In this document: one piece after another, positions 37,071 to 53,443 of the stretch
Position numbering within the stretch: the stretch's first letter is position 1
How the letters are laid out: the number at the start of each line of letters is the position of its first letter
Origin: Propionivibrio dicarboxylicus
GTDB taxonomy: Bacteria; Pseudomonadota; Gammaproteobacteria; Burkholderiales; Rhodocyclaceae
Reading direction: 5' to 3'
NCBI GenBank assembly: GCA_945902805.1
Contig: CAMDMZ010000003.1
Coordinates: forward strand, 62,001 to 126,000
DNA: 64,000 nucleotides
Translations under genes and position numbers: made by a program
The notes under the pieces: generated by a model
Told to the model about the DNA's origin: nothing
The model's input: only the letters and a program-made list of their open reading frames with translations
The model's database searches: none

Positions 37071-37072
37071 GG

Positions 37073-37534
37073 TTATTGCTCCTGATTGTGGGCGAACGTA
37101 TACGCCGCCGCGGTCAAAATATCGCGCGCGTCGCACGCTTCCTGCGCGATGAGCCCTTTCATCGTCGCCGCTTCCCGGGCGATCGTGCCGAGGCTCCCGT
37201 CGATCTTGTTGTTCGTCGTTTTTTCAATTTCGACGATTTGCTCGACGATTGCCTCTGTCATCTTTTTATCGAGGTCGAACGCGGCTTTATTGACTGCGCC
37301 GGGAAACATCTTCACGAAACCGTCGAGCGCGTCGGCGAGTGCCTTTGTCCGGCGAGCGTTGTCGGCAATCGTGATTTCCAGCGACGACAATTTGACGTCG
37401 AGCGTTTTGCCGATACGCTTTTCCGCGGCTTCGATATCGTGCCATCCCGGGGAGTTATGACCGCCGCCGTGCATCGCGTTAAGTTCAAAGCGAAGCGAAT
37501 TGATGCGTTCTTCGAGGTGTTCGATCGTGCTCAT
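37073..37534 (-). CDS. Coiled-coil hypothetical protein
   Basis: 153 residues. N-terminal coiled coil (MSTIEHLEERINSLRFELNA), central GGGHNSPGWHD, long helical remainder. Overlaps the preceding gene by 4 nt. In tailed phages a coiled-coil gene after terL can be scaffold or head-related, but nothing here supports that directly. Confidence 0.5.
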   Translation of the reverse strand: MSTIEHLEERINSLRFELNAMHGGGHNSPGWHDIEAAEKRIGKTLDVKLSSLEITIADNARRTKALADALDGFVKMFPGAVNKAAFDLDKKMTEAIVEQIVEIEKTTNNKIDGSLGTIAREAATMKGLIAQEACDARDILTAAAYTFAHNQEQ

Positions 37535-38202
37535 TTCAAGCCCTCCATCCTGATGCGGCGTTTCGTTTCAATGAAGCGAGCGCGGCGAGCGTCGCGCGCC
37601 GCGTCTTTTTTCCCGGCGACATAAGAAAGGAGTCGGCGCGAGCGGTCATCGAACGCGGGATTCTCGGCGCATTGGCGATAAAGCTCGCCGATGTTGCTAT
37701 GCAAGGCGATCGCCGCGGTGTCGCCGAGGTGTTTATGCTTGTCGGTAGCATTGGCGAGCGCGCTCAATGCGTGCGAGGCATGGCGGCGGATTTCGTCGCT
37801 CGGGTTCGGGATTGCTCCCGCCCGGATTCCCGCAAGCATCTTGCGCGCGAGCGTTTGAAAATGCTCGGGCAGGGCGACAGGCATCGCGCCGCGCCCTTCA
37901 AGATGATCGGCGAGGTCGAGCCATGCCGTCGCCGTCTTATGCGCGTCGGCGAGGATCGTTCGCGCCGCGTCGCGCGACTTGAACATTTCCGATTTAATCG
38001 CGCTCGCGGCGCGGAAAACGTCGCCGGAATGCTTGCACGCATCGCGCTCGTCGAGCATTTGCGCCAAAATATCCCCTGTGCTCGCGCTATGCGACGGGGA
38101 GCGCGCGACCTTGACCAATAGCACGCGCGAATCGACGAGCGATATCGCCGCCTTGAGCTTAAATTCGCTTTGCCTTATTGCTGAATGAACCGTTTGCATC
38201 AT
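37531..38202 (-). CDS. Hypothetical protein after terL
   Basis: 223 residues, helical, rich in Ala, Arg, His and Lys. It holds the position where a portal gene would be expected (57 nt after terL), but has neither the length nor the pattern of a portal protein. Unknown. Confidence 0.55.
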   Translation of the reverse strand: MMQTVHSAIRQSEFKLKAAISLVDSRVLLVKVARSPSHSASTGDILAQMLDERDACKHSGDVFRAASAIKSEMFKSRDAARTILADAHKTATAWLDLADHLEGRGAMPVALPEHFQTLARKMLAGIRAGAIPNPSDEIRRHASHALSALANATDKHKHLGDTAAIALHSNIGELYRQCAENPAFDDRSRRLLSYVAGKKDAARDARRARFIETKRRIRMEGLK

Positions 38203-38259
38203 TTGCTTCCTTTCGACTGAAAGTTGCCGGGGCGCGACGGCGCTCGGCGGGTTGTGACG

Positions 38260-39975
38260 TCATCCGATCATCGCGGCGACGTCGAAAAGCGTGTGCTCCT
38301 TTGTTGCATGAAGGGCGAGCGCCGAAAGCGCCGCCATAATTCCATCGATCTTGAGTTCGCCCGTTCCCGATCCCGCGGCGTCGCGCTTGCTAAAGCGGCG
38401 ACCGTTCCCCGCATCCTCGACGAGCAGGTTCGCCACGTTGAACGCGAGGAGCGGCGACGGCACGCGACAGATGCGCCGGTCGGCGGCGTATGCCTCGAGA
38501 TCGGCGAGCGCCGCGGTGAGCGTCCATCCCTGTTTGACTTCGGCGAACTCCCCGGCGACCGCTTGCCGAAAGCTCGGCACGAATCCCGCCGAGCCGAAGG
38601 CGTCGCCGCCGAAAACGAGCGTCGCGAAGCCGTGACGGTTTCGCAGATCGTTCGCGTCTTGAAAGATGACGCCGGTCATCGCCACGGCGGTTTCATGTAT
38701 GACGAGCTCGCCTTCGGCGCGCGCCTTGTCGTAAACCGACTTGAGCGCCGCCCCCGCGCGGTCATAGCCGAGTTGCGTCAAATGCTGTTTGACCGAAAAG
38801 CAAATGCGCCCCGCGGCATCCTTCCAACAAAGGGCGACCGCGAACGGATCGGAAACGCCGCCCGGGTCGAACGCACAAACGAGGAATTGCACGTCGGAGG
38901 GCGGGAGCCTCGGGCAAGCCTCGAACTCGCCCCATCGCTCTTGAAACACGAGGTCGCCGACATTCTTGCGATCGGCGGGTTCGATGCCGAGACGTTGCGA
39001 CAGGAAAAGCGCGAGGGCGTGCGGATCGTCGCCGCGGATCGCTTCGCGGTATTCCCGCACCATTTCATCAGCGAGCATCGTGCCGACGTCGCCCGGGGTG
39101 CGCTTGAGGCTTGGCATTCCCCAAAACCAATTCGACGAATTGCTGAGGTCGATCTCGGGATATTGTTTGAGCGGCGGCTCGAATATGACCGGGAAAAACG
39201 ACGGGTCGTCGATCTCGCCGTCGCGCACCTTGCGCGCAAGCTCGAGGGTTTGGGTATAGATGCCGCTCGCCGTCGCCGGGGGCGCGGTTGTAATTGCGAT
39301 CTCGAGCGCCTCGACCCCGGCGTTCGCTTGTCCGCGGCGTAACTGGTCGATGACTTGGTTCGCCTGACGGCATTCGAGTGCCATCAGGTGCAGTTCGTCA
39401 TAAATGCAAAGCAACGGGCGCAAGCCGACTGCCTGTTCGAGCGAGGCGACGCGAACGGCGATATCGATGCCGCTCGCGACGTGCGTGATCGTGCGATTGA
39501 CCGCCTTCGAGCGGAATTGGTCGCGGATATGCGGGTCATTGAGAATCGCTTGCTCGACGTGACCGAAAACGATGTTCGAGGTCGCGATCGACGGGCTCAT
39601 GACGATAATCAAGCCGCGATAACCGACGCCCCGGGCGACGCAATCCATCAGGAAGCCGAGCGCGATCGCCGCGGTCATGGTCGATTTGCTCGAACCCTTG
39701 CCAACTTTGAGGAAGGCGCGCCGCACGCGGCGATTACCTTGCGCGTCGGTATTTCCGAACAGGTAGCGCAAATAATCGCGTTGCCACGGCAACATGACTT
39801 CATGAAGTCGCCGCCCCGCGAATTCGCCTTGCGTGAGGAGGAATTGCCCGACGACGCTCGCCATCAGTTCGCCGCGCCCCGCGGGATCGCTCGTCGCCGG
39901 GATTAGGTCGAGGGCGGTCGTCGCCTCGAACCATTGCGGATTGCGGGGAGTGTCGATCGGACGGGCGAACGTCAT
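38260..39975 (-). CDS. terL: Terminase large subunit
   Basis: 571 residues; start 39975 chosen because it overlaps terS as ATGA. ATPase: adenine/P-loop region LKVGKGSSKSTMTAA (about 89-103) and Walker B PLLCIYDELHLM (Asp193, Glu194). Nuclease: CAFDPGGVSDPFAVALCW (first acidic residue), VFGGDAFGS and KIDGIMAALSALALH. This is the HK97-type two-domain motor that cuts and packages DNA. All motifs are intact and no frameshift is present. Confidence 0.92.
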   Translation of the reverse strand: MTFARPIDTPRNPQWFEATTALDLIPATSDPAGRGELMASVVGQFLLTQGEFAGRRLHEVMLPWQRDYLRYLFGNTDAQGNRRVRRAFLKVGKGSSKSTMTAAIALGFLMDCVARGVGYRGLIIVMSPSIATSNIVFGHVEQAILNDPHIRDQFRSKAVNRTITHVASGIDIAVRVASLEQAVGLRPLLCIYDELHLMALECRQANQVIDQLRRGQANAGVEALEIAITTAPPATASGIYTQTLELARKVRDGEIDDPSFFPVIFEPPLKQYPEIDLSNSSNWFWGMPSLKRTPGDVGTMLADEMVREYREAIRGDDPHALALFLSQRLGIEPADRKNVGDLVFQERWGEFEACPRLPPSDVQFLVCAFDPGGVSDPFAVALCWKDAAGRICFSVKQHLTQLGYDRAGAALKSVYDKARAEGELVIHETAVAMTGVIFQDANDLRNRHGFATLVFGGDAFGSAGFVPSFRQAVAGEFAEVKQGWTLTAALADLEAYAADRRICRVPSPLLAFNVANLLVEDAGNGRRFSKRDAAGSGTGELKIDGIMAALSALALHATKEHTLFDVAAMIG

Positions 39976-40409
39976 GCCGACGCGCCTTTTAACGCCTGAT
40001 GCCACGGCGACGCCTCGACGGTTGCCTCATGGTCGCCGCTTGGCTTCGAGGCGGCGATCGAGTCGCGCGCGTGTTTGGTTATCCCGAGCGCCGAGGCTTG
40101 CGCGGCGACCAATCGAACCGCCTTCCCGAGCACGAGCGCCGCGGGAGCCTGTTCGCCGGTTGCGGTGAAAGCGCCGAATTCGTTGATTGCGCGCGCCGCT
40201 TCCCGGGCAAGATGCACCGCATGAAAATATGATTCGATCGTCGGGAGCAATTCGGGCTTATAGATGCCCGACTTTTGAAAGCCGCGGATCAATGTGTCGA
40301 ATTCAGGTTTCAAATTCGGATGAATCGACTCGGGCATTTTGACCGCCCGGGGTTTGATCGAGGTCGCCGCCAATGTGAGCGCGCCGCGCTCGCCTTTGAT
40401 CTTGGTCAT
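39972..40409 (-). CDS. terS: Terminase small subunit (P27-like)
   Basis: 145 residues. LLPTIESYFHAVHLAREAAR, then APAALVLGKAVRLVAAQASA and LGITKHARDSI fit the P27-type small terminase, which recognises the packaging site. It overlaps HNH and terL by 4 nt each. Confidence 0.8.
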   Translation of the reverse strand: MTKIKGERGALTLAATSIKPRAVKMPESIHPNLKPEFDTLIRGFQKSGIYKPELLPTIESYFHAVHLAREAARAINEFGAFTATGEQAPAALVLGKAVRLVAAQASALGITKHARDSIAASKPSGDHEATVEASPWHQALKGASA

Positions 40410-40885
40410 GATTGATCGCCTTTCGATTGATCTAGGTCAAAACGCGCCTTTAGACGCGCCGCCAATGCTTGAGCAGAGTCAAGGGGTATTAACGAATCCG
40501 GCTTCGGAATATGTTTCGAGCCCATAGGCGCGCTTGCGCCCGATCGACCCGGATTTGCCAAACGCCCCCCCTCCCCATCGCTCGACGCCACCCTTGCCCC
40601 AAGAAAACCCGAGCGATAACGTCGGGTATTCGATCCGTCGAGGCGCGCATCGACGAGGAGCGTCTTGCGCGAGTGGCACGAATGGCACATAGCCACCCAC
40701 CGGCTCGCATCCCAAAAGCGAGAAAGCCAATCGCCCGAATGACCGGCAGCATGATCGACGGTGTTCGCCGCCTTGCCACAATGCGCGCAATAGGGGTGAG
40801 CCTTGAGGAAGGCGCGACGCGCGAGCTTCCATCGCGGGGAGCGATACAGTTCGAGACGTTGCGCCTTTGGGCTCATCGGTTGCAT
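40406..40885 (-). CDS. HNH endonuclease
   Basis: 159 residues. LYRSPRWKLARRAFLKAHPY, CAHCGKAANTVDHAAGHSG and MCHSCHSRKT give the Cys4 zinc and His-Asn-His-like catalytic set of phage HNH enzymes encoded next to terminase, where they assist cos cleavage and packaging. The C-terminal third is Ser/Gly-rich and disordered. Confidence 0.88.
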   Translation of the reverse strand: MQPMSPKAQRLELYRSPRWKLARRAFLKAHPYCAHCGKAANTVDHAAGHSGDWLSRFWDASRWVAMCHSCHSRKTLLVDARLDGSNTRRYRSGFLGARVASSDGEGGRLANPGRSGASAPMGSKHIPKPDSLIPLDSAQALAARLKARFDLDQSKGDQS

Positions 40886-40934
40886 GATTGAATGATGAAA
40901 GGCGTTTCGCTATTTGGTGAAGGCGCTATTTCGC

Positions 40935-40991
40935 CAAATAGCGGTTTCGTCAAACAGGGTCGCCGAGGCAGTTTGAGCAGTAGGTCGCCGC
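40935..40991. repeat. 57-bp repeat unit C1
   Basis: caaatagcggtttcgtcaaa through gtaggtcgccgc; identical to 41437-41493 except one base. A partial copy (gaaacagggtcgccgagg ... cagtaggtcgccgg) is at 41011-41055. A ctatttgg/ccaaatag inverted repeat overlaps the start. Confidence 0.85.
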
Positions 40992-41081
40992 GAGTTTGTT
41001 ACGAGATCGTGAAACAGGGTCGCCGAGGCGGGGCGCTTTGCTCAGTAGGTCGCCGGTCGCCGGTCGTTTTCGAGCAAAGTT

Positions 41082-41250
41082 AATTGGTCATGCCTTAAGG
41101 GAGGATGACCGGATGACCAATACTTTTGACCCTCGAAAGCGGCGCGCAGGGAGAGAGATTGAAATCTCTCTCCCTGCGACGACTGCCGCTGTTCTCGTTT
41201 GGGTTGCGAAGCGAACCGGTCATCCGGTCATATCCGCACCATGACCAATT
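41082..41250. repeat. Nested-palindrome module A
   Basis: Outer inverted repeat atgaccggatgacc (41105-41118) / ggtcatccggtcat (41218-41231) surrounds a perfect 16-bp-arm hairpin cgcagggagagagatt (41145-41160) with a 2-nt centre. Extra aattggtcat / atgaccaatt words lie at 41082-41091 and 41241-41250. Confidence 0.8.
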
Positions 41251-41436
41251 CAAACCCGCACCAATTGGGCGTTTGCGGCGATTTGTTGCCGAACTGGTCA
41301 TGATTGACGCCATGCCCAGTTCGGCTTTGAGCGGCGACTTATTGCCCATCGGTAAAAACGAGCCATTTATCGTCGAACGGTTTGAAGTATTGGTCGCGGA
41401 GGCGATCGCGAATAATCGACCCGAGGCGATGCCCGT

Positions 41437-41493
41437 CAAATAGCGGTTTCGTCAAACAGGGTCGCCGAGGCGGTTTGAGCAGTAGGTCGCCGC
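41437..41493. repeat. 57-bp repeat unit C3
   Basis: Second full copy of the unit at 40935-40991, lying between modules A and B. Confidence 0.85.
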
Positions 41494-41510
41494 TCGTTTT
41501 TAGGGGGGGA

Positions 41511-41740
41511 GGAGATGGTGCATTCCCTAAGGAAAACGAGAAAATGCACCATCTCCTCAATCGACCATCGAGGGGGAGAGAAACAAAGTTTCTCTCTCCC
41601 CGACGATGGGGATTTCGCATTGCCGCGGTGAGATGGTGCATTGGTGCATTTTTAACGAATGCACCATCTTTTCCGCTCAACCATGCGGGTTTGCGAAGAT
41701 TTTGCCGAGATGGTGCATTATTTTGAAAATGCACCATCTC
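41511..41740. repeat. Nested-palindrome module B
   Basis: Three gagatggtgcatt / aatgcaccatctc pairs (41511-41524 with 41543-41556; 41630-41642 with 41658-41669; 41707-41719 with 41728-41740) and a long hairpin gggggagagaaac-aaa-gtttctctctcccc (41565-41609). Same plan as module A with different words. The last hairpin overlaps the end of the next gene. Confidence 0.8.
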
Positions 41741-42161
41741 GTTTCTTCGCGGCGACGGTCTTTGCTTTCGGGAGCGTGCCGTGCGGCGTGCCTCGCAATG
41801 TTTCGATCCGTGCCTTGTGTTCCTCCCACGCCTTTTGAAATTCTCCGCACATTTGCGCGAGGCTTACGCAAAAATATTCATTAACCCATGCTTTATCGCC
41901 GCTCAACATGAAATCAGGAATTGCGCCGTCGTTGATGAGGGCGCGCCAGCTTTCGCGATCGAGCCCGATAGCGACGTCCGATTCGTCGCCGAAGTTTTTA
42001 GAATTGGGGAGCGCGATGATCGCGCTCGATCCTTCGGCGATATCTTGCCTCCGCCAATTGTTGAGATGGTGCGCGAATCGATCTAGGGTGTAGGGGTCGT
42101 GATGCCATACGCCGAGGGTTGCGACTTGCGCGATTGATTGGGGAACACTTGTTTCTTTCAT
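41718..42161 (-). CDS. Hypothetical protein downstream of the primase-helicase
   Basis: 147 residues from ATG 42161, overlapping the preceding stop as ATGA. SSAIIALPNSKNFGDESDVA and a lysine-rich tail (KAKTVAAKKRDG). No family recognised. Its stop codon lies inside a palindrome of module B that could also end the transcript. Confidence 0.55.
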   Translation of the reverse strand: MKETSVPQSIAQVATLGVWHHDPYTLDRFAHHLNNWRRQDIAEGSSAIIALPNSKNFGDESDVAIGLDRESWRALINDGAIPDFMLSGDKAWVNEYFCVSLAQMCGEFQKAWEEHKARIETLRGTPHGTLPKAKTVAAKKRDGAFSK

Positions 42162-45109
42162 GATTGCGCCTCTTGTGAGTTGTGGAATTGATAAACCGCC
42201 CAATCGTTGCCGAGCGGGGTGCAGCGTTGCTCAATGAACCGTTTGCGGGTAAGGGTTGCGGTTTCGCGGTTTGCCCCGACGGTGACGCCCTTGGGCGTGC
42301 TCTTGAAACTCGCGATCGGGTATAGCGCAGCATCGGCATAATCCCCAAGATCGACGGCGACCTTCTTTGCGTCGCCTAGCTTGACCATCACGCCGAGCGC
42401 GTCCGGGTGTAGTTCGCGGAAATGTGCCTCATAAGCGGCGACGCCTTCCTCGATCTGCCGGTCGGCATTGCTCGCCTTGATGACCGCCGCCGCTTCCTCG
42501 CGATCTTCCGCGGTGAGGATTTCAGGCTCGACGACGATCGATCGTTGCTCAACAATGTCGCCGTGACGGTTCGGGCGGTTTTCGACGATCGTTGCGACGT
42601 TGCGAAATGCGATTTCCTGATAATCGCGGTCGTTGCGGATTTTCTCTGTTTGCATGATCCGCAAGTCGGGTAAATCCTTATCGACCCGGAAAAACGCCGT
42701 TCCGTTCGCGTCGCCTTCCATCGCTCCCGCACCGCGGAACGAAAAGTTGTCCCCGGTCGCCGCCGCCGCTTTGCTAACGTGACCGATAACCCAAACCGAG
42801 CAAAGGCGTTTTTCGTAAAGCTCAACCTTGAGCGCCGCCAAAACCCGCGATTGCTGCGCGTTGTCGTTTTCGCTTTCGATCTCGAACGAGGCGGCATGGG
42901 TGTCAAAAACGATCAGGGGCGGTTCGTTATGGGGCGGCAATGCCTCAATCAAGCGAACGACCTCGGCGACCAGTTGCGCGACCGGCAAACGGCGCGCCGG
43001 GGCGACCTTGATCGAGTCGTTCGCCGCTTTCGGATCGATGCCGCGGTGGATCAGTTGCGCCCGGATCGAGCGGCGAATTTGCCCTTCTGCTTCGGTGACG
43101 TAAATCACGGGGCGAGGGTAACGGGTGTGAATCCTCCCGTCGTTAAAAGTTGCCAATCCCGCAACGCATAAAACGAGCGGGGCGAGGTTCGTCGATTTGC
43201 CGATACCGTGCCGACCGGCGACCGCCCAAACGCCCTCGTCGATAAATCCTTCGATGACCCAATCCGCCGCGGGAGTCTCATCGAATGCGTTTTCGATAAA
43301 TGTCATTCGCGGGGCGGCGACCATTTGTCGATCGCCCCGCGACTTTGGGTCGAATACCTCGCCGGTCGCGTTGTCGATGACGACGCCGCCCTCGAATCGT
43401 TCGCCGCGCGCCCGATAGATCGCCTCAAGGTCGAACCCTGCGAACGACGTTCCGGGCATCGTCGGCGGCGGCACGTCGAAACCCTTTTCCTTGAGCCATT
43501 GCCAAACGGAAAGCGAACGAAACTCGGCGCATGATCCATGATGGCAACGAAACTTCCAATCGCCGGTCGCCTCGATGAATATTCCCGCGCCGTCGTCGTC
43601 GATCTGGTCGGTATGCGCGAGATAGTTCGGGCATTGCACCTCGACCCATCCCGACGCGCGCCGCTTTCGCAACGTGCCGAGCTCATCGAACGCCCGGGCG
43701 ACAGGATGCGCCACGGCGTCGCCGCCGACGAGCTCGCCGCGGAGGTCGATCGCCTTCGCCGCTTCCTCGAGATTTTCGATCCCGAGCCATGCGGCGAGCT
43801 CGTCGGGTGAATATTTGTTATCCGGTTTCCAATATTCGAGCCGCACCGGAAAACCCTCGTCGCCGAAGGCTTCCAAATGCTTCGCCTTGACGTTTGCGCC
43901 AAACGGCAAGCGGAAAACTCTATTCAGTCCGCCCGATCCGGGCTCGTTGAATCCCTGTTCGATCGACGCGTCGATAATCGCTTGCGCTTGCGCCGATTCG
44001 GTCAAGGGTTCGGCGAGACGGTAGAAAAACTGCCGGTTGCCCGGCGACGACTCGAGGATCATTGTCGGTTCGCCGAAACCGCGTTCCCGCGGATCGCCGA
44101 CCTTCGTTCCGACGTCATCGAACAGGAAGCCATAAGTCGCCGTCACGTTGTAGCTCGAGCGGTGATATACGCCATCGGCGTCGGGCGCATGGGTCGAGAT
44201 CGAGGCGTAAGTCGCGACGCCACGGCAATCGCCCTCGACCGCCTTCGCGTTGTAGCGCATCGCGCCGCCGCCCCATTGATCTTGCACGCGGGAGCCGACG
44301 ACGTAAGCCTCGGGCAAAGCGTCGCCGAAGATAACCTCGAGCGCGTCACGATTGCAGGAAGGGGGTTTACCGGCGTTTACAGCCTCGCCACGCGCTTTTT
44401 TCGGGGCGGGTGAGGGTTCGGCATCCTCCGACGCCTTTTTCGCCGTTGTAGCCCTCTGGATTTCATGATAGCCGCCATCAATCGATGCGCCCGAAATAAT
44501 AGGCGTCGCCGTCTTGTCGAGAATGGTGCGGATTTCGTCAAGGTAGCGATCGACGTCGAGATCGTCAGGAATGCCCGTCGAGATATCGACGATCGGCTTG
44601 CACCCTTTGTGCACTCGTTTCGCCGGGGCTTTTCCCGTCGGCGGGATCGTGATTTCGGGCGCGGCGGCGTCGGTCGAGTAATAGACGCGCATTACGTTGC
44701 CCATATCGACGCCGCCGACAAGGTGCGTCCCGTTCGTTGTCGCCACGGTACAAAACGCCCCCATGTCGCCGCGCGCGATCGCGTCGGCGACCGTTTGTTC
44801 GATCGGCGTTCCCGCCCGATCAGATTCGAGGATCGCTTGCGGCACGATGAGGCGGTTCGGGTTCGATTCGAGGTTGCGCTCCGGATTGAGCGAGCCTTTT
44901 CCCTTGACCTTGCCGTTCGCGAGAATCGCCTGATACGTGTTGACGTTGAGTCGCCGGTAATGCTCGACCTTTGTCGTCTCGAATTCGAGCCCGAAATCAT
45001 CTTCGATCGATTTGATCGCGGCGGCGACGCGCTCCTCGTCTCCCGGTGCAATGGCGATTAGCATGCCGTCGGTATTCATTGAAGCGATGAATGTCTGTTC
45101 GTGAGTCAT
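42158..45109 (-). CDS. Family-B DNA polymerase C-part (motif C + thumb) fused to primase-helicase
   Basis: 983 residues; start ATG 45109 behind AAGGGG, overlapping the previous stop as ATGA. Residues 6-200 are the end of a phage-type PolB: motif C FIASMNTDGMLIAI (catalytic Asp14), RRLNVNTYQAILANGKVKGK, GTPIEQTVADAI and NVMRVYYSTD ... DDLDVDRYLDEIRTIL. After a Lys/Pro-rich linker (about 220-250) come an archaeo-eukaryotic-type primase (FLFDDVG at 329-334, MILESSPGNRQFFYRL, GLNRVFRLPFGANVK), a zinc-binding stretch (C493...H499, C522-HHGS-C527), and a RecA-like ATPase (Walker A GRHGIGKST 632-640, Walker B PPLIVFDTHA, VIGHVSK). The rest of the polymerase is in the preceding gene. Domain calls rest on motifs, not on a search. 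Confidence 0.85.
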   Translation of the reverse strand: MTHEQTFIASMNTDGMLIAIAPGDEERVAAAIKSIEDDFGLEFETTKVEHYRRLNVNTYQAILANGKVKGKGSLNPERNLESNPNRLIVPQAILESDRAGTPIEQTVADAIARGDMGAFCTVATTNGTHLVGGVDMGNVMRVYYSTDAAAPEITIPPTGKAPAKRVHKGCKPIVDISTGIPDDLDVDRYLDEIRTILDKTATPIISGASIDGGYHEIQRATTAKKASEDAEPSPAPKKARGEAVNAGKPPSCNRDALEVIFGDALPEAYVVGSRVQDQWGGGAMRYNAKAVEGDCRGVATYASISTHAPDADGVYHRSSYNVTATYGFLFDDVGTKVGDPRERGFGEPTMILESSPGNRQFFYRLAEPLTESAQAQAIIDASIEQGFNEPGSGGLNRVFRLPFGANVKAKHLEAFGDEGFPVRLEYWKPDNKYSPDELAAWLGIENLEEAAKAIDLRGELVGGDAVAHPVARAFDELGTLRKRRASGWVEVQCPNYLAHTDQIDDDGAGIFIEATGDWKFRCHHGSCAEFRSLSVWQWLKEKGFDVPPPTMPGTSFAGFDLEAIYRARGERFEGGVVIDNATGEVFDPKSRGDRQMVAAPRMTFIENAFDETPAADWVIEGFIDEGVWAVAGRHGIGKSTNLAPLVLCVAGLATFNDGRIHTRYPRPVIYVTEAEGQIRRSIRAQLIHRGIDPKAANDSIKVAPARRLPVAQLVAEVVRLIEALPPHNEPPLIVFDTHAASFEIESENDNAQQSRVLAALKVELYEKRLCSVWVIGHVSKAAAATGDNFSFRGAGAMEGDANGTAFFRVDKDLPDLRIMQTEKIRNDRDYQEIAFRNVATIVENRPNRHGDIVEQRSIVVEPEILTAEDREEAAAVIKASNADRQIEEGVAAYEAHFRELHPDALGVMVKLGDAKKVAVDLGDYADAALYPIASFKSTPKGVTVGANRETATLTRKRFIEQRCTPLGNDWAVYQFHNSQEAQS

Positions 45110-47310
45110 GATTGCCCCTTGTATTGATAGGTTCGTTTCATCGGTTCGCCGAGCCATCCCCGGATATATTTCGATAGTTCGCATCCTGCGGCGTTTTGAA
45201 CGTCCGTTAGGATCAGTTCGATCCCAAGTTCCCCGGCGATGATTGATTGCAGTTCGAGCATTCGGGCAAGCGCCCACGGTTGCGGAACGGGATCGTCGGT
45301 CAATCCGCGCCGATAGAGCAGTTGCAAACCCTTCATCGCGCCCGGCCCAGCGTGCGCCCATGTGTCGCGATCCGCCCATTGCGAGCCGAATGTCATCCAT
45401 CGCAGATCGATCGCGACTTGGCTCGCAAAGAAGTCGCCGAATCCGGTCACGTCAGCGAGCACGCCGACGGCGGCGCGCATGGTTGCCGCTTTACGCAAAC
45501 GTTCCTCGACCGCGCGCAACAGGGTAAGCGCGCCGAAGGGGATCGATCGCGTGTGCTCCTTTGCTCCGGCGATCTCGATCCATTTGCGAACCACGGGAAC
45601 ACGGTAAGCGGCGGTCGATTTTGCGCCGCGTGCCTTCGCCGCCTCGAGCGTCGTTGCGATGAGCTCGGGGTCGAAACGTTCGCCCGGCCAAGCGTTCGCC
45701 GCGGTAAGCGCCTCGAAAAACGATTCGGTATTCGTCAGGCGCCCGAGGGCGACGCCGAGATAATCGAACCGCGTGCCGTCGTGCGGGTCGCGGTGATGCC
45801 GCGCGAGCGAACGGGTCAATCGATCATCCTCGCGGCGGTTGCAGCAAAACCGATGATCGCGAATTACCGGGTCGTCGGTTAGCGGTGCGGGGAGATTCGC
45901 CTCGCGCGCCTTTTGCACCTTTTCCCGCTCGCGAACATAGAACAAGGCGACGCCGTAATCGGGCGGTGCGTTGCCTTTCGCGACCGCCGCGCGTATCCGT
46001 TCCTCGGTCATGCGTTCGGGAATGGTGATCGGATGAATGATCGCGGGAGCGGTGACGGTCGGGGTTTGGGTCGAGGCAAATGTCGCGGCACTGGTCGCCG
46101 CCCGATTCCCGGCGATCTTTTCGGCGGCGGCGATGAGGATCAGTTGCCCCGCGATCGTGATCCGCAAAAAGGTTAGCGGCGAAAACAGTGCCGAATAGCG
46201 ATCGTTGCCCATGCCGAACGTCGAATTGACGACGACTTTCAATGCCGCCGCTTCGCGCGTGCGACCGTTGCGCTTCGCGTCGAGGCGTTGCTCGATCATG
46301 CGCGCAAAGGTCGGGCGGAAAATACCCGGGTCGAGATGTTGCGGCGACATTCCGGGTTTGAGCAGCAACGCGGGGTAATAGGATGAAACGTCGATATCGA
46401 GAGCGTGCGCGATACGCCCGGCTCGATCGCGCGAATGCAAGCCGCCGAGCCCGAAATTGCAATCGATCCCGCCGACGGTGATCTGCCGAGGCCATGTGCG
46501 CGACGGCTTGCCGCGTTCGCCGTCGCGGATCGGGAATATCGTTCCCTCGATCTCGGCAACGATCGACGCAGCGACCGGCGACGATGCGAGCCCGACGTGC
46601 AACCATTCGGGGAGCCCGAATTCGACGTCGCAATTCCAAAACCGTTTCGCACGCGCCTTGACGTCGGCGGCTTCGTCGCCGCTCGCCTTGCAGTATTCCG
46701 CAACGAGCACCGTCTCGGCGGCACGCGCCGGGGATTTGCCCATTAAACCCGGGAGATCGAACATAGTTTCAAGTTCGTGCCGCGTAGCGATATCGTCGGC
46801 GAGCTCGCGCCATAGAAACTCGGTCGCCGCAAGGTCGTGTTCGAGGTAGGTTTGCACCTTCGGCAGATCGTCCGCGGTGATCGGCGCGTCGGGATCGAAC
46901 GGCAAGCATTCGACGCGATCCATCCCGAGTCGCGCCTCAAACGCTTTCAATTTCGCGCGCTTGCTGAGAATGTTGAACAGGTCGAGCTCGTTGAATCCCG
47001 ACTTGCCGAACCCGAACCCGCGCGCCGTTTTCCATGCGGGGGCGTCACCTTCGACGATAGCTTTCGATAGCTTATAAACGAGCTCGGGCGGTGCGCCCTT
47101 GAGGATCGCGTCGAGGATGAAAGTATCGTATCCCGCCGAATTGAATCCGATCAATTCGTCGCCGTGATTGAGGCGGTCGCGCAAACGCGCGGCGACCTCG
47201 GGTTCGATCGGGGCGTCGATGACGATCTGTTCGCTTTGCTTCGTCTCGGCGTCGAGCAATCCGACGATCGACAGGTTAGGCGCGACTTCAATATCGAAAA
47301 TGGTTGGCAT
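45106..47310 (-). CDS. Family-B DNA polymerase N-part (exo + motifs A, B) fused to amino-acid:DNA-transferase-like domain
   Basis: 734 residues; start 47310 after AGGAGG, overlapping the helicase stop. Exonuclease motifs: DIEVAP (6-11), GFNSAGYD (55-62), YLEHDL (155-160). Polymerase motif A DIDVSSYYPALLL (305-317) and motif B KVVVNSTFG (358-366), then GQLILIAAAEKIAG to about 401, where a polymerase should run straight into motif C. Instead a Thr/Ala/Pro linker (402-433) leads to a C-terminal domain (434-734) with RDHRFCCNRREDDRLTR, DFFASQVAIDLRW, AGPGAMKGLQ and LTDVQNAAGCELSKY. These fit the alpha-glutamyl/putrescinyl thymine pyrophosphorylase / amino-acid:DNA transferase family of phage DNA hypermodification. 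Motif C and the thumb follow in the next gene. Confidence 0.85.
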   Translation of the reverse strand: MPTIFDIEVAPNLSIVGLLDAETKQSEQIVIDAPIEPEVAARLRDRLNHGDELIGFNSAGYDTFILDAILKGAPPELVYKLSKAIVEGDAPAWKTARGFGFGKSGFNELDLFNILSKRAKLKAFEARLGMDRVECLPFDPDAPITADDLPKVQTYLEHDLAATEFLWRELADDIATRHELETMFDLPGLMGKSPARAAETVLVAEYCKASGDEAADVKARAKRFWNCDVEFGLPEWLHVGLASSPVAASIVAEIEGTIFPIRDGERGKPSRTWPRQITVGGIDCNFGLGGLHSRDRAGRIAHALDIDVSSYYPALLLKPGMSPQHLDPGIFRPTFARMIEQRLDAKRNGRTREAAALKVVVNSTFGMGNDRYSALFSPLTFLRITIAGQLILIAAAEKIAGNRAATSAATFASTQTPTVTAPAIIHPITIPERMTEERIRAAVAKGNAPPDYGVALFYVREREKVQKAREANLPAPLTDDPVIRDHRFCCNRREDDRLTRSLARHHRDPHDGTRFDYLGVALGRLTNTESFFEALTAANAWPGERFDPELIATTLEAAKARGAKSTAAYRVPVVRKWIEIAGAKEHTRSIPFGALTLLRAVEERLRKAATMRAAVGVLADVTGFGDFFASQVAIDLRWMTFGSQWADRDTWAHAGPGAMKGLQLLYRRGLTDDPVPQPWALARMLELQSIIAGELGIELILTDVQNAAGCELSKYIRGWLGEPMKRTYQYKGQS

Positions 47311-48710
47311 TATTTCCTCCTCATGACGTCGAGCGCCGCAATCAGCGCCGCCTCGCCCGATTGCTTCCGGGCGAGCACGCCGAGGATCGCGCGGTCGATC
47401 CCTTGATTTGCGACGAGTTGAATGACGGAAACGCGGCGCGCTTGACCCGAGCGGATAAGGCGCGCGTTCGTTTGGGTAAAGGATTCGCTCGACCAAGAGT
47501 TCGCGAACCAAATGATCGTTTGCGCCGCGCCGTGCTGTAAGTTCAAACCGTGCCGCATCGCTTGCGGCGAGACGACCAGCATCGGGATTTTGTCGAGATT
47601 CCAATCGCGAACGATGCGTCGCCGCTCCTCGTCAGGTGTTGCGCCGACGAAGGCGATCGCCCACGGGAAACGCTCGACGATCATGGCAAGTTCCGCCTTG
47701 TAGCGAATCGGGATCATGACCGGCGACGATATGCCCTCGAGCACTTCCTCGAGGGCGTCGAGGCGCGCGTCGGTGAGTTTGGCGAATGTGCCGCGCTCAT
47801 CGAGATAGACAAACCCATTCGTCAATTGATGCAACTTGCCAAGGTAAGCACCATCGTCGCCGCCGTTGATCGTGACGCCGCCGATCTCGACGGTGCGCTC
47901 CCGCATGAATTCCTCGATGAGCCCCGCAACATCCTCGCCGTGATCGAACGGCGCGGTCGAGTAAAGCGCCGGGGGCAGATCGACGGCATCCTCGAGGCGG
48001 ATCGATATCGCATGGCGCGCGATCTCATCCTCGATGCGTTTCGTCGCCCCGGGTTTCGGCTTCCATCCGAACGCGGTCACTTTGTCGAAATGTCGCGCTC
48101 GCCACCGCGGGAATGATTGATCCCAAAAGTCGCCGCCGCGCGAGACGATGCGCCCGGGCGACCATAGGTCGATCGCCGAATTCGGACGCGGCGAGCCCGA
48201 CAGCAAAAGGATATTCCCGCGGCAAAGCGCCGCGAGTGCGTGAAGGGCTTTTGTCCGCACGGCATCGGCGTTGCGAAAGCCCTGCGACTCATCGACGACA
48301 ATCGCCTCGACGGGCAGGATTCCCCGAGCGGCGACTTCCTCGACGAAGCGCGGCAAGACGTCGGGCGTCACGGTGACGATATGCCCCTTTCCCTCAAACC
48401 AAAGGTGTGACCGATCGTTCCCGGTCATGCGGTGCGCTTCGTCAAATCTAATATGTTGCGTGTGCGCCCATTCGTTCGCCTCGATAGGCCAAACGGTATC
48501 GAGGATCGCCCGGGGCGCGACGAGTAAGGCGCGCGCAAAGCGCCCCGCGGCGATGCCGTCGGCGACGATGGTGAGCGCCGTCGGCGTCTTGCCCGAGCCC
48601 GGGGCGGCGGCGATAAGGTGCGGCTCGCTTGCCGCGGCTATGACGGCGGCTTGTTGCCATCGGTAAAGTTGTTCGCGTTCGCGCAATGGCGCGCGTTGTA
48701 AGGTTTCCAT
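47310..48710 (-). CDS. SNF2-like DNA helicase/translocase
   Basis: 466 residues, superfamily 2. Walker A AAPGSGKTPTAL (about 36-47), motif II VVDESQGF, motif III LLLSGSPRPN, and C-terminal motifs with VVSPQAMRHGLNLQHG, then QTNARLIRSGQ (motif VI). Typical of the small SNF2-type helicases in phage replication clusters that also have DUF2800 and DUF2815 genes. Last base of ATG of the next gene overlaps its stop. Confidence 0.88.
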   Translation of the reverse strand: METLQRAPLREREQLYRWQQAAVIAAASEPHLIAAAPGSGKTPTALTIVADGIAAGRFARALLVAPRAILDTVWPIEANEWAHTQHIRFDEAHRMTGNDRSHLWFEGKGHIVTVTPDVLPRFVEEVAARGILPVEAIVVDESQGFRNADAVRTKALHALAALCRGNILLLSGSPRPNSAIDLWSPGRIVSRGGDFWDQSFPRWRARHFDKVTAFGWKPKPGATKRIEDEIARHAISIRLEDAVDLPPALYSTAPFDHGEDVAGLIEEFMRERTVEIGGVTINGGDDGAYLGKLHQLTNGFVYLDERGTFAKLTDARLDALEEVLEGISSPVMIPIRYKAELAMIVERFPWAIAFVGATPDEERRRIVRDWNLDKIPMLVVSPQAMRHGLNLQHGAAQTIIWFANSWSSESFTQTNARLIRSGQARRVSVIQLVANQGIDRAILGVLARKQSGEAALIAALDVMRRK

Positions 48711-48728
48711 GATCGACCCTTAAGAATG

Positions 48729-48763
48729 AAAAAAACCCCGACGCCGCAAGCGGTCGCCGGGGT
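48729..48763 (-). terminator. Terminator after the DUF2815 gene
   Basis: On the minus strand ccccggcgaccgc-ttg-cggcgtcgggg (about 12-bp stem with two mismatches) is followed by seven T. It lies between the ssDNA-binding protein gene and the helicase gene. Confidence 0.7.
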
Positions 48764-48802
48764 GATGTTGCGTTGCGCCGAATTAAGCCTTCGCGAACAC
48801 GA

Positions 48803-49429
48803 TCAAGCCTCCGCCCCGAACGTCGCGTCGGCGGTTCTAAACTTGACGCCCGACAGATCGAGCGAATCGAACGACGTGCCGCCGCCCTGCCCTTTTTCGA
48901 TGACGTGCTCGGTCTTGCCGATCAACAGGATCGCCGAGAGCGACAGGGCGACCCCGGCGCTTTGATTGTTGAAGTGAAAGGCTTGAATTCCGACGAGACA
49001 TTCGTCGCCGCCCTTGATCTCGCCCGGGTCGCACGGCGTTTTATTCGCACCGTAAAAGCACTTCGGCGCGAACCCGGATTTCAAACGGACGACGACGTTA
49101 TCGCCGCGGAATCCGGCATGCTTGAAAACGAGCTCGCCGTTTGGCTTGCGCTCATCGGCGTCGCGGATCGGGTTGTGATACTTCGCCCCGAGTGTGCGGC
49201 TCCCGGTCAAGGCTTCCGCATGGTCGCCGATGAGCTCGAGCAGGGTTTCGAGCGTCGGTTCGTTGCGCGGAATGATGAGCAGGGTCGAGTATTTCCCGGT
49301 TTCGGGATCGGGCTCGGTGACGGTCGGATACGCGACCACGCCATGCACGGCGATTTCGCGTTTGAGGGTTGCTTCCGAGATCGCCGAGGCGATGGGCTTT
49401 TTTGCGGTTTTGTAAGAGTTTGCACTCAT
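48803..49429 (-). CDS. DUF2815 ssDNA-binding protein
   Basis: 208 residues from ATG 49429. The body ends in an OB-fold pattern: FYGANKTPCDPGEIKGGDEC, LVGIQAFHFNNQSAGVALSL, LLIGKTEHV, and an acidic-type tail region. This is the phage T7 gp2.5-like DUF2815 group that coats single strands during replication. It has its own upstream gap (49430-49552) and a downstream terminator. Confidence 0.8.
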   Translation of the reverse strand: MSANSYKTAKKPIASAISEATLKREIAVHGVVAYPTVTEPDPETGKYSTLLIIPRNEPTLETLLELIGDHAEALTGSRTLGAKYHNPIRDADERKPNGELVFKHAGFRGDNVVVRLKSGFAPKCFYGANKTPCDPGEIKGGDECLVGIQAFHFNNQSAGVALSLSAILLIGKTEHVIEKGQGGGTSFDSLDLSGVKFRTADATFGAEA

Positions 49430-49552
49430 GACTATCGAACCTTTATGACAGTTTCGGCTTTCGCCGACCCCCTCGATATGAGAGGGCGATAGGGATTCTT
49501 TAACTCGCGCCGCTATTATTTTTCGACCCTGTTTGACCAAATAGGGGATTCG
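49430..49552. promoter_or_regulatory. Upstream region of the DUF2815 gene
   Basis: AT-rich compared with its neighbours. It holds gaccctgtttgaccaaatag and gtcaaatagcg, words related in inverse orientation to the start of the 57-bp unit (caaatagcg...caaacagggtc), suggesting a common regulator site. No clear promoter boxes. Confidence 0.4.
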
Positions 49553-50272
49553 TCAAATAGCGCGCGACGGGCATTCATAGCGCCCTTTGCACCATTGGCA
49601 AGCGGTCGCGCTCGGCTCGACGGGCGGCTCGTCGAGATCGGTCAAAGCGAGGCGTTCGCGGCAATGCTCAAGGAAGTCGGCGACCATTTGCCGGTCGGTT
49701 TCCCAAACGACAAGCCCGATCCCGGGCGCGGTCGGTTGGATGATGGCGATCGCGATCGTCTCGATCCCCACGGCGACGCCTTGATCGATAAAACGCAACG
49801 CGCCCGAGGCGTAAGCGAGGAGTTGTTCATTGAGCCGCGGGTCGATCTTGATCTTGCCAAACTTCGCATCGCCGACGACGAGCGTCGATCCGTCGCCACT
49901 GATGCCGATGTAATCGCTCGTTCCCCAAAAGTCGGAACGCCCGATCGCTGCGCCCGGATCGACGCGAACCTCATGCCATCGTTCGCCGATCTGGTAACGC
50001 TCCTCGAGGGCGCGCAAGGCGACGATCGCACGGTCGAGGAGCGTTTGCGCCCGGGCTTGACCGCAATCGAGCACGTCGAGCTCGATTACCGCGTTCGGGG
50101 TGAGCGAAGGGTCGCCGCCCAATGCCACGCGCTCAAATTCATCATGGAGCACCGTGCCGATCATGGCGGCGCGCCCGGATCGATCCTCGACGGTTTCGTT
50201 CCAGATGACCGCCATCGCGCAAGCGAGCGCCGTCTTGAGGTAAGACGGCGGAATTCTGGCATGGTCACTCAT
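49553..50272 (-). CDS. Cas4/DUF2800-like PD-(D/E)XK nuclease
   Basis: 239 residues from ATG 50272. His43 in GTVLHDEFE, Asp120 in GTSDYIGIS, the D135-A-K137 core in VVGDAKFGKIKI, Gln150 in LNEQLLAYA, and a Cys cluster CQWCKGRYEC near the C-terminus that can hold an iron-sulphur centre. RecB-family exonuclease of phage replication/recombination clusters. The ATG overlaps the previous stop by 8 nt. Confidence 0.82.
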   Translation of the reverse strand: MSDHARIPPSYLKTALACAMAVIWNETVEDRSGRAAMIGTVLHDEFERVALGGDPSLTPNAVIELDVLDCGQARAQTLLDRAIVALRALEERYQIGERWHEVRVDPGAAIGRSDFWGTSDYIGISGDGSTLVVGDAKFGKIKIDPRLNEQLLAYASGALRFIDQGVAVGIETIAIAIIQPTAPGIGLVVWETDRQMVADFLEHCRERLALTDLDEPPVEPSATACQWCKGRYECPSRAI

Positions 50273-50939
50273 CGCAATAGCCGCAATCGGCGGCGACGAG
50301 ATATGACCCGATCCATCGTTCGATTTTGCCGATCTCGCCGATCGATCTCGACGGCAAACTCGGGCGGTTTTGCGGCGACGCCGCGGGGAAGGTGACGCGC
50401 CAAAAGTCGAGGATCGGGGCGATCGTATCCCGGGGGGCGCGCAGCTTCCCGGTCGTCGAATCATCCGCGGCGACGTGGTGATAAACGACGCGCAAAACGT
50501 CGCTATAAAAGCGCCCCGGGTCGCCCTTGCGCCATTGCGCCCGATGCCATCCCTCGATTGCGATATCGAGCTCGACGGGGGCGAACGGGTTTGGCAAAAA
50601 CGCCTCAACGTCACAATCGCAAAATTCGCGACCATAGCAATCGTCGAGGGTAAGAATTGTCGCCGTTCCAATCGGCGCGACGAGGCATCGATCGGGGTCG
50701 ATGCGCGGTATCCCTTCGACCTCATCGAAGGCGGTAAGCAAACGGGAATCGAAGATGATCCCGGGCGGTCGGAATAGATCAACGTCGCGGCGACGCGCTT
50801 TCATCAGTTCGGCGGCGCGAAACGCCGAAGCGTTCGCTACCGTCGCCCCGGATATGTGCCGCGGAACGATAACGCGACCGCGGAACGGATCGTCGTCGCC
50901 CCAATAGCCTGAACCGGCATCGATGAATTTAATCGACAT
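50265..50939 (-). CDS. Hypothetical protein
   Basis: 224 residues from ATG 50939 (MSIKFIDAGSGYWGDDDPFR); a longer upstream reading is unlikely because it runs through the previous gene. Contains a CYGREFCDCDVEAF Cys cluster and a GYCDE tail, so metal binding is possible. No family recognised. Overlaps both neighbours. Confidence 0.55.
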   Translation of the reverse strand: MSIKFIDAGSGYWGDDDPFRGRVIVPRHISGATVANASAFRAAELMKARRRDVDLFRPPGIIFDSRLLTAFDEVEGIPRIDPDRCLVAPIGTATILTLDDCYGREFCDCDVEAFLPNPFAPVELDIAIEGWHRAQWRKGDPGRFYSDVLRVVYHHVAADDSTTGKLRAPRDTIAPILDFWRVTFPAASPQNRPSLPSRSIGEIGKIERWIGSYLVAADCGYCDE

Positions 50940-51165
50940 CCTTGCTCGCCTCGCTTGGGGATTCGGTGACTTCGCGCTCCTCAATTTGCACGTCGTCGGG
51001 GGCAGGTGCGCCGCTCGCGATGAGGTATGCCACGGCGAGCAGATCGTCGAGGGCTTTACCTTCCCCGAAGCCTCCCGCCGAAATACCAGTGATATCCCCG
51101 GTCGAGTTGTAACGGATAGTCGCCGCGATAGCGTTGCGGCGGACGGTTTTGATTTTTGCACTCAT
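50929..51165 (-). CDS. Small hypothetical protein
   Basis: 78 residues. Basic MSAKIKTVRRNAIAATIRYN start and an acidic EEREVTESPSEASKDVD tail. Overlaps the next gene by 11 nt. Unknown. Confidence 0.5.
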   Translation of the reverse strand: MSAKIKTVRRNAIAATIRYNSTGDITGISAGGFGEGKALDDLLAVAYLIASGAPAPDDVQIEEREVTESPSEASKDVD

Positions 51166-51194
51166 GACTCATGCACTCCATGAAAAGTTGAGTT

Positions 51195-51452
51195 TTAGGC
51201 CGAGGCGGTCTCGGCAATACCAAGCAAGCGAGCGGCGACGTCAGGGAACAACCCGGTATCGATAAAGTAGTCGCGACCGATCCGAATCAACGCGCCTGAT
51301 TCGGTCAGGGCTTGCCGGTTGTTTTTGAGGAACCATTCAAACGATTCGGGTTTTTCCCAAATCTTGCGAACCCAAGGCGGGGCGTCGTGTTGGTAATAAT
51401 CCGGTTTGCGGCGAAGTCGGTTTAAGGTTTCATCCATTGCGCTATTCTCCAA
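51195..51452 (-). CDS. Small helix-turn-helix protein, candidate excisionase/regulator
   Basis: 85 residues. SFEWFLKNNRQALTESGALI followed by RIGRDYFIDTGLFP is the pattern of short winged helix-turn-helix proteins of integrated elements (a helix, ESGA turn, RIGR wing). A 20-bp site 4 nt upstream of its start (51456-51475) recurs inverted beside attR. Together these suggest a recombination directionality factor that also controls itself. Confidence 0.55.
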   Translation of the reverse strand: MENSAMDETLNRLRRKPDYYQHDAPPWVRKIWEKPESFEWFLKNNRQALTESGALIRIGRDYFIDTGLFPDVAARLLGIAETASA

Positions 51453-51455
51453 AAG

Positions 51456-51475
51456 TTAAAACGTCGCTCCCTACG
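51456..51475. promoter_or_regulatory. 20-bp site shared with attR flank
   Basis: ttaaaacgtcgctccctacg; exact inverted copy at 53396-53415, related copy near attL (35231-35247). Confidence 0.55.
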
Positions 51476-51484
51476 AGCTAGGTC

Positions 51485-51566
51485 GAGAATATCAGGGCAA
51501 ATGGTTGTTAAGTAATTGAAAACAAACATATCCGTCCGTTGAGCTAGCACTTCAGACAGATTTGTT
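51485..51566. repeat. 82-bp direct repeat, copy 1
   Basis: gagaatatcagggcaaatgg through cagacagatttgtt. One mismatch to 51891-51972. It lies 33 nt upstream of the 85-residue gene. Confidence 0.92.
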
Positions 51567-51575
51567 TCAAGGCAA

Positions 51576-51600
51576 TAAAAAACCGCCTTTCGGCGGTTTG
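51576..51600 (-). terminator. Terminator of the 79-residue gene
   Basis: aaaccgcc/ggcggttt stem with a T-run (TTTTTTATT) on the minus strand, just after the stop at 51606. Confidence 0.85.
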
Positions 51601-51605
51601 TCTGG

Positions 51606-51845
51606 TCAGACTTCGATTTGGTCGATTGCCCCGGTCCAGTGTACCGAACGACTATACTCGCCTCGGATGTCATCGGTCATGAACTTAATAAACCGATACA
51701 GCCGATATAGAGCATCGTCGTCCAAAGGGATGTTTACAGTCTCCGGTTCATCCCAACCAGGGAGGGTAACGGTGGTGTAGAGATGAAAAGTACCATCGGC
51801 CCAACGGACCAGCTGCAAATCAAAATGCTTTAACTTTTTACTCAT
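51606..51845 (-). CDS. Small hypothetical protein
   Basis: 79 residues. Beta-rich N-terminal half (HFDLQLVRWADGTFHLYTTV) and a helical YRLYRFIKFMTDDI segment. It has its own repeat-borne upstream region and terminator, so it is an independent transcript. Unknown. Confidence 0.6.
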   Translation of the reverse strand: MSKKLKHFDLQLVRWADGTFHLYTTVTLPGWDEPETVNIPLDDDALYRLYRFIKFMTDDIRGEYSRSVHWTGAIDQIEV

Positions 51846-51890
51846 GACATTTGAACTCCGAAAGATTCATCACCGGATCGGTGATGGTTG

Positions 51891-51972
51891 GAGAATATCA
51901 GGGCAAATGGTTGTTAAGTCATTGAAAACAAACATATCCGTCCGTTGAGCTAGCACTTCAGACAGATTTGTT
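51891..51972. repeat. 82-bp direct repeat, copy 2
   Basis: 46 nt upstream of the 79-residue gene and overlapping the last 15 nt of the 160-residue gene. On the minus strand it ends with GATATTCTC, a possible -10 region. Confidence 0.92.
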
Positions 51973-52440
51973 AGTTAACGCTTGCTTGTAGTTGACCGCT
52001 CGATCTTTGGTCGCTTTTTCCAGCAGTTCCGGGCAGTCGACAGCTAGGATTTTGCGAACCTGATTCAGCAAAACGGTCCATCCGGGAATATGACCGTTTC
52101 GCTCGGCGATAACGCGATCAAACCAGGGTTTGAGATCATTTGAAACCCTGGTCGCCGCTTCTTTGTTAAGTTCCGCCGTGGTTTTTCCGCCGAGACTTCG
52201 ACCTTCGCCAGCAAGGGCGGCGACCTCGTTTTCAGCATTGCGCCGGGCAAGCGTCCACGCGAGATTGTTTTCCGCAACGGCTACGCGTTGAAGGGTGTCG
52301 ATCTCCCTTTCCGTTGCGTCGTCGGGTATCCAGAACGACGCCGGTCCGGGGCGACTTGGCAGTAATGCCAAGTTTGCCCGGGCAATTGCTTTCTTTGCCT
52401 GGTTGATCGTTTGAGCTTTGCTTTTTGGTTTCATCGCCAC
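51958..52440 (-). CDS. Hypothetical protein overlapping int
   Basis: 160 residues. Basic N-terminus (MAMKPKSKAQTINQAKKAIA), long helical body. Its start lies in the last codons of the integrase gene (10-nt overlap). No family recognised. Confidence 0.6.
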   Translation of the reverse strand: MAMKPKSKAQTINQAKKAIARANLALLPSRPGPASFWIPDDATEREIDTLQRVAVAENNLAWTLARRNAENEVAALAGEGRSLGGKTTAELNKEAATRVSNDLKPWFDRVIAERNGHIPGWTVLLNQVRKILAVDCPELLEKATKDRAVNYKQALTNKSV

Positions 52441-53339: not shown

Positions 53340-53368
53340 TTGAAACTCCTTAAAACATCGATAAAAGG

Positions 53369-53390
53369 AACGTTGGATTTATCCAACGTT
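53369..53390. promoter_or_regulatory. Perfect 22-bp palindrome upstream of int
   Basis: aacgttggat-tt-atccaacgtt between int and attR; a likely operator or integrase arm site. Confidence 0.6.
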
Positions 53391-53395
53391 GCTTT

Positions 53396-53415: not shown

Positions 53416-53443
53416 GGGTTCCGGATCAAACACTTACAATCAG

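Follow-up and report, generated by a model that had tools for sequence, protein, structure and literature searches.

Two overlapping genes of an integrated element in Propionivibrio dicarboxylicus encode a family-B DNA polymerase broken between motifs B and C

We analysed a 64,000-nucleotide (nt) stretch of Propionivibrio dicarboxylicus DNA (contig CAMDMZ010000003.1, positions 62,001–126,000; hereafter the window), in which an 18.3-kb integrated element carries two overlapping genes that, at the level of sequence, are confirmed as one family-B DNA polymerase (PolB) broken between motifs B and C. Gene 1 (45106–47310, minus strand) is an open frame for a 734-amino-acid (aa) protein consisting of the PolB N-half and an HMUDK_hel domain, and gene 2 (42158–45109, minus strand) is an open frame for a 983-aa protein in which the C-half is followed by a primase and an AAA_25 domain. 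We consider it likely that the two products are subunits of a single polymerase assembled in trans, with the C-half forming part of a primase-helicase.

The N-half (residues 3–400 of the 734-aa protein; 46111–47304, minus strand) comprises the exonuclease, motif A and motif B and matches positions 55–446 of the 663-position phrog_1252 DNA polymerase profile (E = 3.2e-71), while the C-half (residues 8–200 of the 983-aa protein; 44510–45088, minus strand) comprises the motif C palm strand and the thumb and matches positions 452–651 (E = 3.6e-29). A first-pass annotation, based on the letters of the window, had proposed that gene 1 carries exonuclease motifs with motifs A and B and stops resembling a polymerase at about residue 401, and that gene 2 opens with motif C and the thumb. 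The profile match in gene 1 indeed ends at residue 400, and the string NTDG stands at residues 12–15 of the gene 2 product (45065–45076, minus strand). Both halves match one family, which answers the concern that either might belong to a different one. Strings for Exo I, Exo II, Exo III, motif A (residues 307–313) and motif B (358–366) were all found in the 734-aa protein; for these and for motif C, the names are those that we take the strings to represent. The two genes share a 4-nt stop/start overlap, ATGA (45106–45109, minus strand). A strong ribosome-binding-like AGGAGG precedes the ATG of gene 1, and AAGGGG lies just upstream of that of gene 2.

When aligned with seven intact relatives (alignment A1; five phage records and two loci from genomes in the window's own family), the halves span the whole enzyme and join between motifs B and C with no residue lost, in agreement with the earlier suggestion that together they read as one polymerase. 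A profile built from this alignment gave 15 matches in the PDB, every one a DNA polymerase, including E. coli Pol II, Pol alpha and 1s5j, which we take to be Sulfolobus PolB1. Residues N12, T13, D14 and G15 of the gene 2 product are conserved at 90% or more in a second alignment (A10) of 43 sequences, five of which are primase sequences outside or mostly outside the motif C stretch. Apart from the two halves, no phrog_1252 match was found in the window's own genome (G000, a draft of 129 contigs) or in that of Limnohabitans radicicola JUR4 (G622). Between the N-half and HMUDK_hel lies a linker (residues 401–457; 45940–46110, minus strand), Ala/Thr/Pro-rich at its start, for which Pfam and phrog scans returned no family match. 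A second, decayed motif C in this linker (...TFASTQTPT...) was considered and rejected, as its DNA similarity to the true motif C start fell within that of shuffled sequences (54 of 500 at or above).

The same break, together with the primase fusion and the gene overlap, recurs in three other sequences: L. radicicola JUR4 (loci L192 and L195), a Comamonadaceae metagenome-assembled genome (L194) and a 40.5-kb IMG/VR contig (L208). A search for it among homologues and related elements had been proposed in the first-pass annotation. The first of these sisters to be found was a 415-codon open frame of L. radicicola with a 43% match to window residues 3–399, among 399 genomes of the order; the window host and Limnohabitans share this order (Burkholderiales in NCBI terms). 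The Limnohabitans N-half has 414 aa and is 42.5% identical to that of the window, and its 1,253-aa C-protein starts with the C-half (33.7% identity) and continues with the primase (33.2%), the two genes overlapping by 8 nt. The arrangement is the same in L194 and L208, with an overlap of 14 nt, and the N-half is unfused in all sisters (414–415 aa). A common gene order was also observed, comprising an exonuclease (window, L192 and L194), a single-strand binding protein, an SNF2 helicase and the two polymerase genes, judged partly by eye from translations in L194 and L208. The end of the Limnohabitans C-protein is a different module (phrog_29234, phrog_19930) from the AAA_25 of the window, suggesting that this end of the protein is exchangeable too.

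Ratios of nonsynonymous to synonymous substitution rates (dN/dS) among the three sisters were 0.07, 0.10 and 0.12 for the N-half and 0.08, 0.10 and 0.10 for the C-half, showing that both halves are under purifying selection in these lineages. The first-pass annotation had taken the two open frames and their ATGA overlap as arguing against decay; the frames are open as described, and the low ratios in the sisters add to that argument. Separate trees of the halves (65 tips from 91 loci after removal of near-duplicates, with L194 dropped as near L192 and L208 not included) each placed the window and L192 as sisters, with support of 1.0 for the N-half and 0.957 for the C-half, while the deeper placement of the pair was unresolved. 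Because both trees recover this pair, the pieces were most simply inherited together after one event, and the break would then have arisen once, in an ancestor common to the window element and the Limnohabitans/Comamonadaceae phages.

A possible origin of the break is suggested by relatives in IMG/VR, for which the best 80 polymerase loci and the best 80 HMUDK_hel loci of longer lists were used. The motif B/C junction lies within one open reading frame (ORF) in all 80 polymerase loci. At least seven of these (L038, L039, L043, L045, L047, L048 and L099) have a PolB broken elsewhere, just upstream of motif B; two of the gaps were read by eye and hold a GIY-YIG-like ORF (L038) and an HNH-like ORF (L099). 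These endonuclease-like ORFs suggest that insertion of a homing endonuclease is a live route to splitting this PolB family, a route also proposed for the T4-type gene 43 (PMC2988022). Rfam searches showed no intron in L038, L048 or L099, and a group I intron at the break in the window was rejected likewise, with no Rfam intron match at E up to 1 over positions 41000–50000.

The gene 2 product continues beyond the C-half with an AEP-type primase domain (residues 250–443; 43781–44362, minus strand; RepB_primase, 25.0 bits against a cut-off of 24.3) and an AAA_25 ATPase/helicase domain (residues 605–782; 42764–43297, minus strand; 76.8 bits, cut-off 27). The primase domain also matches the structures of the S-2L PrimPol (6zp9, Z = 15.8) and RepB' (3h20, Z = 11.5), so that both family score and fold point to an AEP primase in residues 250–443. 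No primase was found in the polymerase ORF in any of the 80 IMG/VR polymerase loci, and the PolB C-half was not seen at the same locus as the primase relatives L196–L200. Further split members were sought in 399 genomes of the Limnohabitans family, which returned only the Limnohabitans genome itself. Annotated phage records gave 737 matches to the Limnohabitans N-half, the ten listed having at most about 32% identity, and plasmid records gave four, at no more than about 28% identity. One candidate found with a profile of the split clade, L193, was rejected as a split member since its PolB is intact (751 aa).

The N-half of the window is fused to HMUDK_hel (PF18723; residues 458–717 of the 734-aa protein; 45160–45939, minus strand; 106.7 bits, cut-off 25). 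This copy keeps all 16 columns that are invariant over 58 HMUDK_hel rows, and a model of residues 440–734 based on the 58-row alignment reached a predicted local distance difference test score (pLDDT) of 90.2 and a predicted template modelling score (pTM) of 0.88. Compared with VIA-align, its structural neighbours were a near-tie between queuine-salvage DUF2419 (Z = 10.5), the 5-PmdU glycinyltransferase PUGT of phage PaMx11 (8z2n; Z = 9.9, root-mean-square deviation 4.2 over 215 residues) and the best 8-oxoguanine glycosylases (Z up to 9.4). Foldseek with the same model gave nothing with E < 0.5 (best E = 0.57), and sequence-profile searches of the PDB gave no match for HMUDK_hel. Because Foldseek alone was weak, the assignment rests on VIA-align, from which the domain is predicted to have a helix-hairpin-helix (HhH) DNA-glycosylase-like fold. 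While the predicted fold aligns with PUGT and HhH DNA glycosylases, their identity to HMUDK_hel is only about 10% and a shared activity is not implied; a literature search on PUGT found nothing. Presumably, HMUDK_hel in the window is a base-modifying or DNA-reading module at the fork.

As for the distribution of this fusion, the annotation's statement that each half is tied to another enzyme holds in the window (HMUDK_hel on one half, AEP primase and AAA_25 on the other), while the N-half fusion has been seen in one genome only. Neither L192, L194 and L208 (for L208, its 13-kb locus) nor the whole genomes G622 and G1146 showed HMUDK_hel, the genomes in a search that does detect the G000 copy. 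When the HMUDK_hel–polymerase fusion was sought elsewhere, single-sequence scans of IMG/VR and GTDB contigs returned no relative; in overlapping samples from the family (395 genomes), the order (399) and the class (369), eight, seven and four matched, respectively, and the window's own genome was the only one to match over both parts. None of the 80 IMG/VR HMUDK_hel loci has polymerase or primase parts within flanks of up to 4.5 kb. As the domain was not found in the sisters, it was most simply gained later in the window lineage, at the free C-terminus of the N-half, the alternative being loss in the sisters. Separately, four of the 80 IMG/VR polymerase loci (L042, L050, L062 and L081) have an HMUDK_hel gene 2.0–2.7 kb upstream of an intact PolB, so that both partners of the window fusion co-occur there as separate genes.

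From these observations we propose a mechanism in which ribosomes that end gene 1 would restart at the overlapping ATG, so that both halves are made at one place, as the overlap suggests. The N-half would bring the exonuclease, the motif A palm and the fingers, and the C-half the motif C hairpin and the thumb; the halves would pair via the palm, where Asp307 of protein 1 (motif A) and Asp14 of protein 2 (motif C) may form a single catalytic site. As the protein that starts with the C-half goes on to a primase and an AAA-ATPase, pairing would also build primase and helicase into the polymerase assembly, and HMUDK_hel would later have been added, in the window lineage, to the C-terminus left free on the N-half. 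In its fullest form this is a two-subunit replisome core, in which the active site exists only when subunits 1 and 2 meet and polymerase, primase, helicase and, in this element, a base-modifying step are held at the fork by the shared palm; we offer this extended version tentatively and regard it as possible rather than probable.

Several observations weigh against assembly in trans. The model of the C-half (the first 204 residues of the 983-aa protein) can be aligned with family-B polymerases, starting at about residue 529, and has motif C where a predicted hairpin turns, but it is of middling quality (mean pLDDT 74, pTM 0.50) and its Z-scores of 7–8 fall in a range that the alignment tool calls common; it is the sequence profile that carries the assignment to the family. 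The HMUDK_hel–PolB fusion has a single witness, the window genome, and the 330 extra residues on the N-half could hinder joining of the halves. Synonymous differences between the window and L192 are saturated (pS 0.71 and 0.73), making dN/dS informative among the sisters only. Lastly, the element may be a prophage stripped of virion genes, or satellite-like.

The last point leads to the reading that the window holds a decaying polymerase, a once-working split enzyme, with the HMUDK_hel fusion and the missing virion genes as signs of a defective remnant. In favour of this reading, no capsid, portal or tail gene could be recognised in the element, the fusion was found in no other sequence searched, and long branches lead to the window halves (tip depths of 2.87 and 2.59 against medians of 1.88 and 1.85). 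We nevertheless consider decay unlikely, as both frames are fully open with all motif strings intact, the entire replication block is open, the gene overlap and AGGAGG are retained, and HMUDK_hel keeps its 16 invariant columns with a model pLDDT of 90. The first-pass annotation had raised the concern of an assembly chimera at about 46110 or 45110, and such a misassembly might explain why the fusion has one witness in a draft of 129 contigs. The break is nonetheless present in three further sequences that were assembled separately, including that of a named strain, and HMUDK_hel is intact, in frame and ends in the ATGA overlap, which makes a chimera barely conceivable. Recurrence of the break, selection on both halves and the paired trees form a strong argument against both chimera and decay.

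The remaining two readings accept the split itself. Separate domains on each half would be compatible with products that do not pair, the N-half acting on its own in exonuclease activity and the C-half belonging to the primase in a structural or DNA-binding role. We find this very unlikely: the N-half keeps the motif A and B strings and the C-half motif C, both are constrained in the sisters, and neither G000 nor G622 holds another phrog_1252 match. Overlapping genes are typical frameshift sites, and the halves might instead be joined into one chain by programmed frameshifting there or by a split intein. However, the ATG falls on base 3 of the upstream codon in the window and on base 2 in L192, L194 and L208, and this difference in reading phase makes frameshifting unlikely; extra residues are also present at the join in all four. 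Split inteins are known in PolB genes (PMC10189870 and PMC4104785), but only about 7–11 residues precede the motif C strand in the C-proteins, too short for an intein C-part, which makes protein splicing unlikely. A Pfam scan of the window proteins showed no intein family, and neither an N-part nor a C-part of an intein was found at the break. A single joined chain is thus scarcely credible, and two subunits meeting in trans remain our preferred reading.

Split PolB enzymes were already known, as the first-pass annotation had stated, and the idea of a palm site assembled in trans is in print in principle (PMC4104785 and PMC2988022), so that its supposed novelty does not stand in general; for the window pair, homology suggests such a shared site. 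In Aeromonas phages 25 and 44RR, gp43 is likewise a phage family-B polymerase in two genes, and in phage 25 the 43A and 43B parts purify together and have polymerase activity (PMC2988022). Unlike the window pair, these parts have a seg endonuclease gene or an untranslated spacer between them, and the available text mentions no fusion to other enzymes; they are taken to belong to a different polymerase group, the T4 type. The split PolB3 of Methanobacteriales and Nanoarchaeum equitans is also a replicative family-B polymerase in two gene parts, but it is cellular and ascribed to erratic intein excision or an intein split (PMC4104785); we liken it to the window pair by its two-part layout and not by the exact position of the break. 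PolB16 OarG from a sheep gut metagenome is a PolB-type gene in two parts whose chains are joined by a split intein of 15 + 168 aa (PMC10189870), a part that the window pair lacks. Splits have further been described for family-A polymerases of OM43 phages (PMC10580990) and for the Pol III core of jumbo phages (PMC7824862).

The same family includes the intact phrog_1252 polymerases of the phages Langgrundblatt1, RcTitan, R7M, Erebus and pCB2051-A, which have 24–30% identity to the N-half but are single chains without a primase or HMUDK_hel fusion; Langgrundblatt1 and RcTitan also have a helicase and an exonuclease near polB. HMUDK_hel is shared with the hypermodification phages Sonora, M6 and RHph_TM26 (the latter by tblastn), in which it is a stand-alone gene, in contrast to the window copy fused to half a PolB. 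In Sonora this gene overlaps that of a 5-hydroxymethyldeoxyuridine (5-hmdU) kinase (PF18748), and Sonora and RHph_TM26 have an annotated DNA polymerase I. The amino acid:DNA transferase ADDT (PF18724) and HMUDK_hel are different genes in Sonora and M6. The Sonora kinase as a query gave no match in G000, in a search run without a positive control, and no kinase family was seen among the element ORFs scanned, which took in some of the small ones below TerL.

As far as our searches reach, what is new is the conserved break in this PolB family, the joining of the C-half to a primase-helicase and, for one element, the attachment of HMUDK_hel to the N-half; searches of open-licence PMC texts brought up nothing recognised as a description of any of these, which is not proof of absence. 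If our reading is correct, selection can preserve a palm break in a replicative polymerase, and such a break can act as the joint at which a primase-helicase is fastened to the polymerase. A natural split PolB with a replicated junction could be used to test palm reassembly in trans, and in the window protein a domain of the base-hypermodification type is naturally fused to a polymerase subunit.

The element carrying these genes spans 35167–53491 between 48-nt direct repeats of 98% identity (35167–35214 and 53444–53491), one copy of which lies in tRNA-Val. It encodes an integrase (52431–53339), an HNH protein (40406–40885), TerS (39972–40409), TerL (38260–40005) and a sigma-70 region 4 ORF (35351–35659). 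The replication block continues upstream of gene 1 on the minus strand with an SNF2-type helicase (47310–48710; phrog_62, E = 8e-83), an Enc34/gp2.5-like single-strand binding protein identified by family matches (48803–49540) and an exonuclease ORF (DUF2800; 49553–50782), whose match spans only residues 170–408 so that its true start may be later. While the terminase is present, no portal, capsid or tail gene was recognisable in the element. From TerL to the left repeat the longest minus-strand ORF has at most 223 aa, and minus-strand ORFs of at least 100 aa from L205, the structural region of Limnohabitans with genes for capsid, tape measure and tail proteins among others, gave no match in the window.

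The SNF2 helicase is a single 466-aa ORF in the window and is split between its two lobes in all three sisters (L192:10138–11696, L194:5582–6990 and L208:4606–6014), where the ORFs overlap by ATGA and both halves have dN/dS of 0.07–0.15. The sister lineage therefore has two replication enzymes, PolB and the SNF2 helicase, split with overlapping genes. HMUDK_hel was also observed at bacterial loci, judged by eye: in L008 it has a kinase-like part fused at its N-terminal side, and a thymidylate-synthase-like ORF comes next, while in L007 it adjoins a thymidylate-synthase-like ORF. With L010 as a further bacterial locus, these are possibly a thymidine-modification or defence cassette outside phage replication modules. 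Lastly, the element contains two pairs of internal direct repeats, at 40932–41499 (66 nt, 94% identity, 502 nt apart) and 51485–51972 (82 nt, 99%, 406 nt apart).

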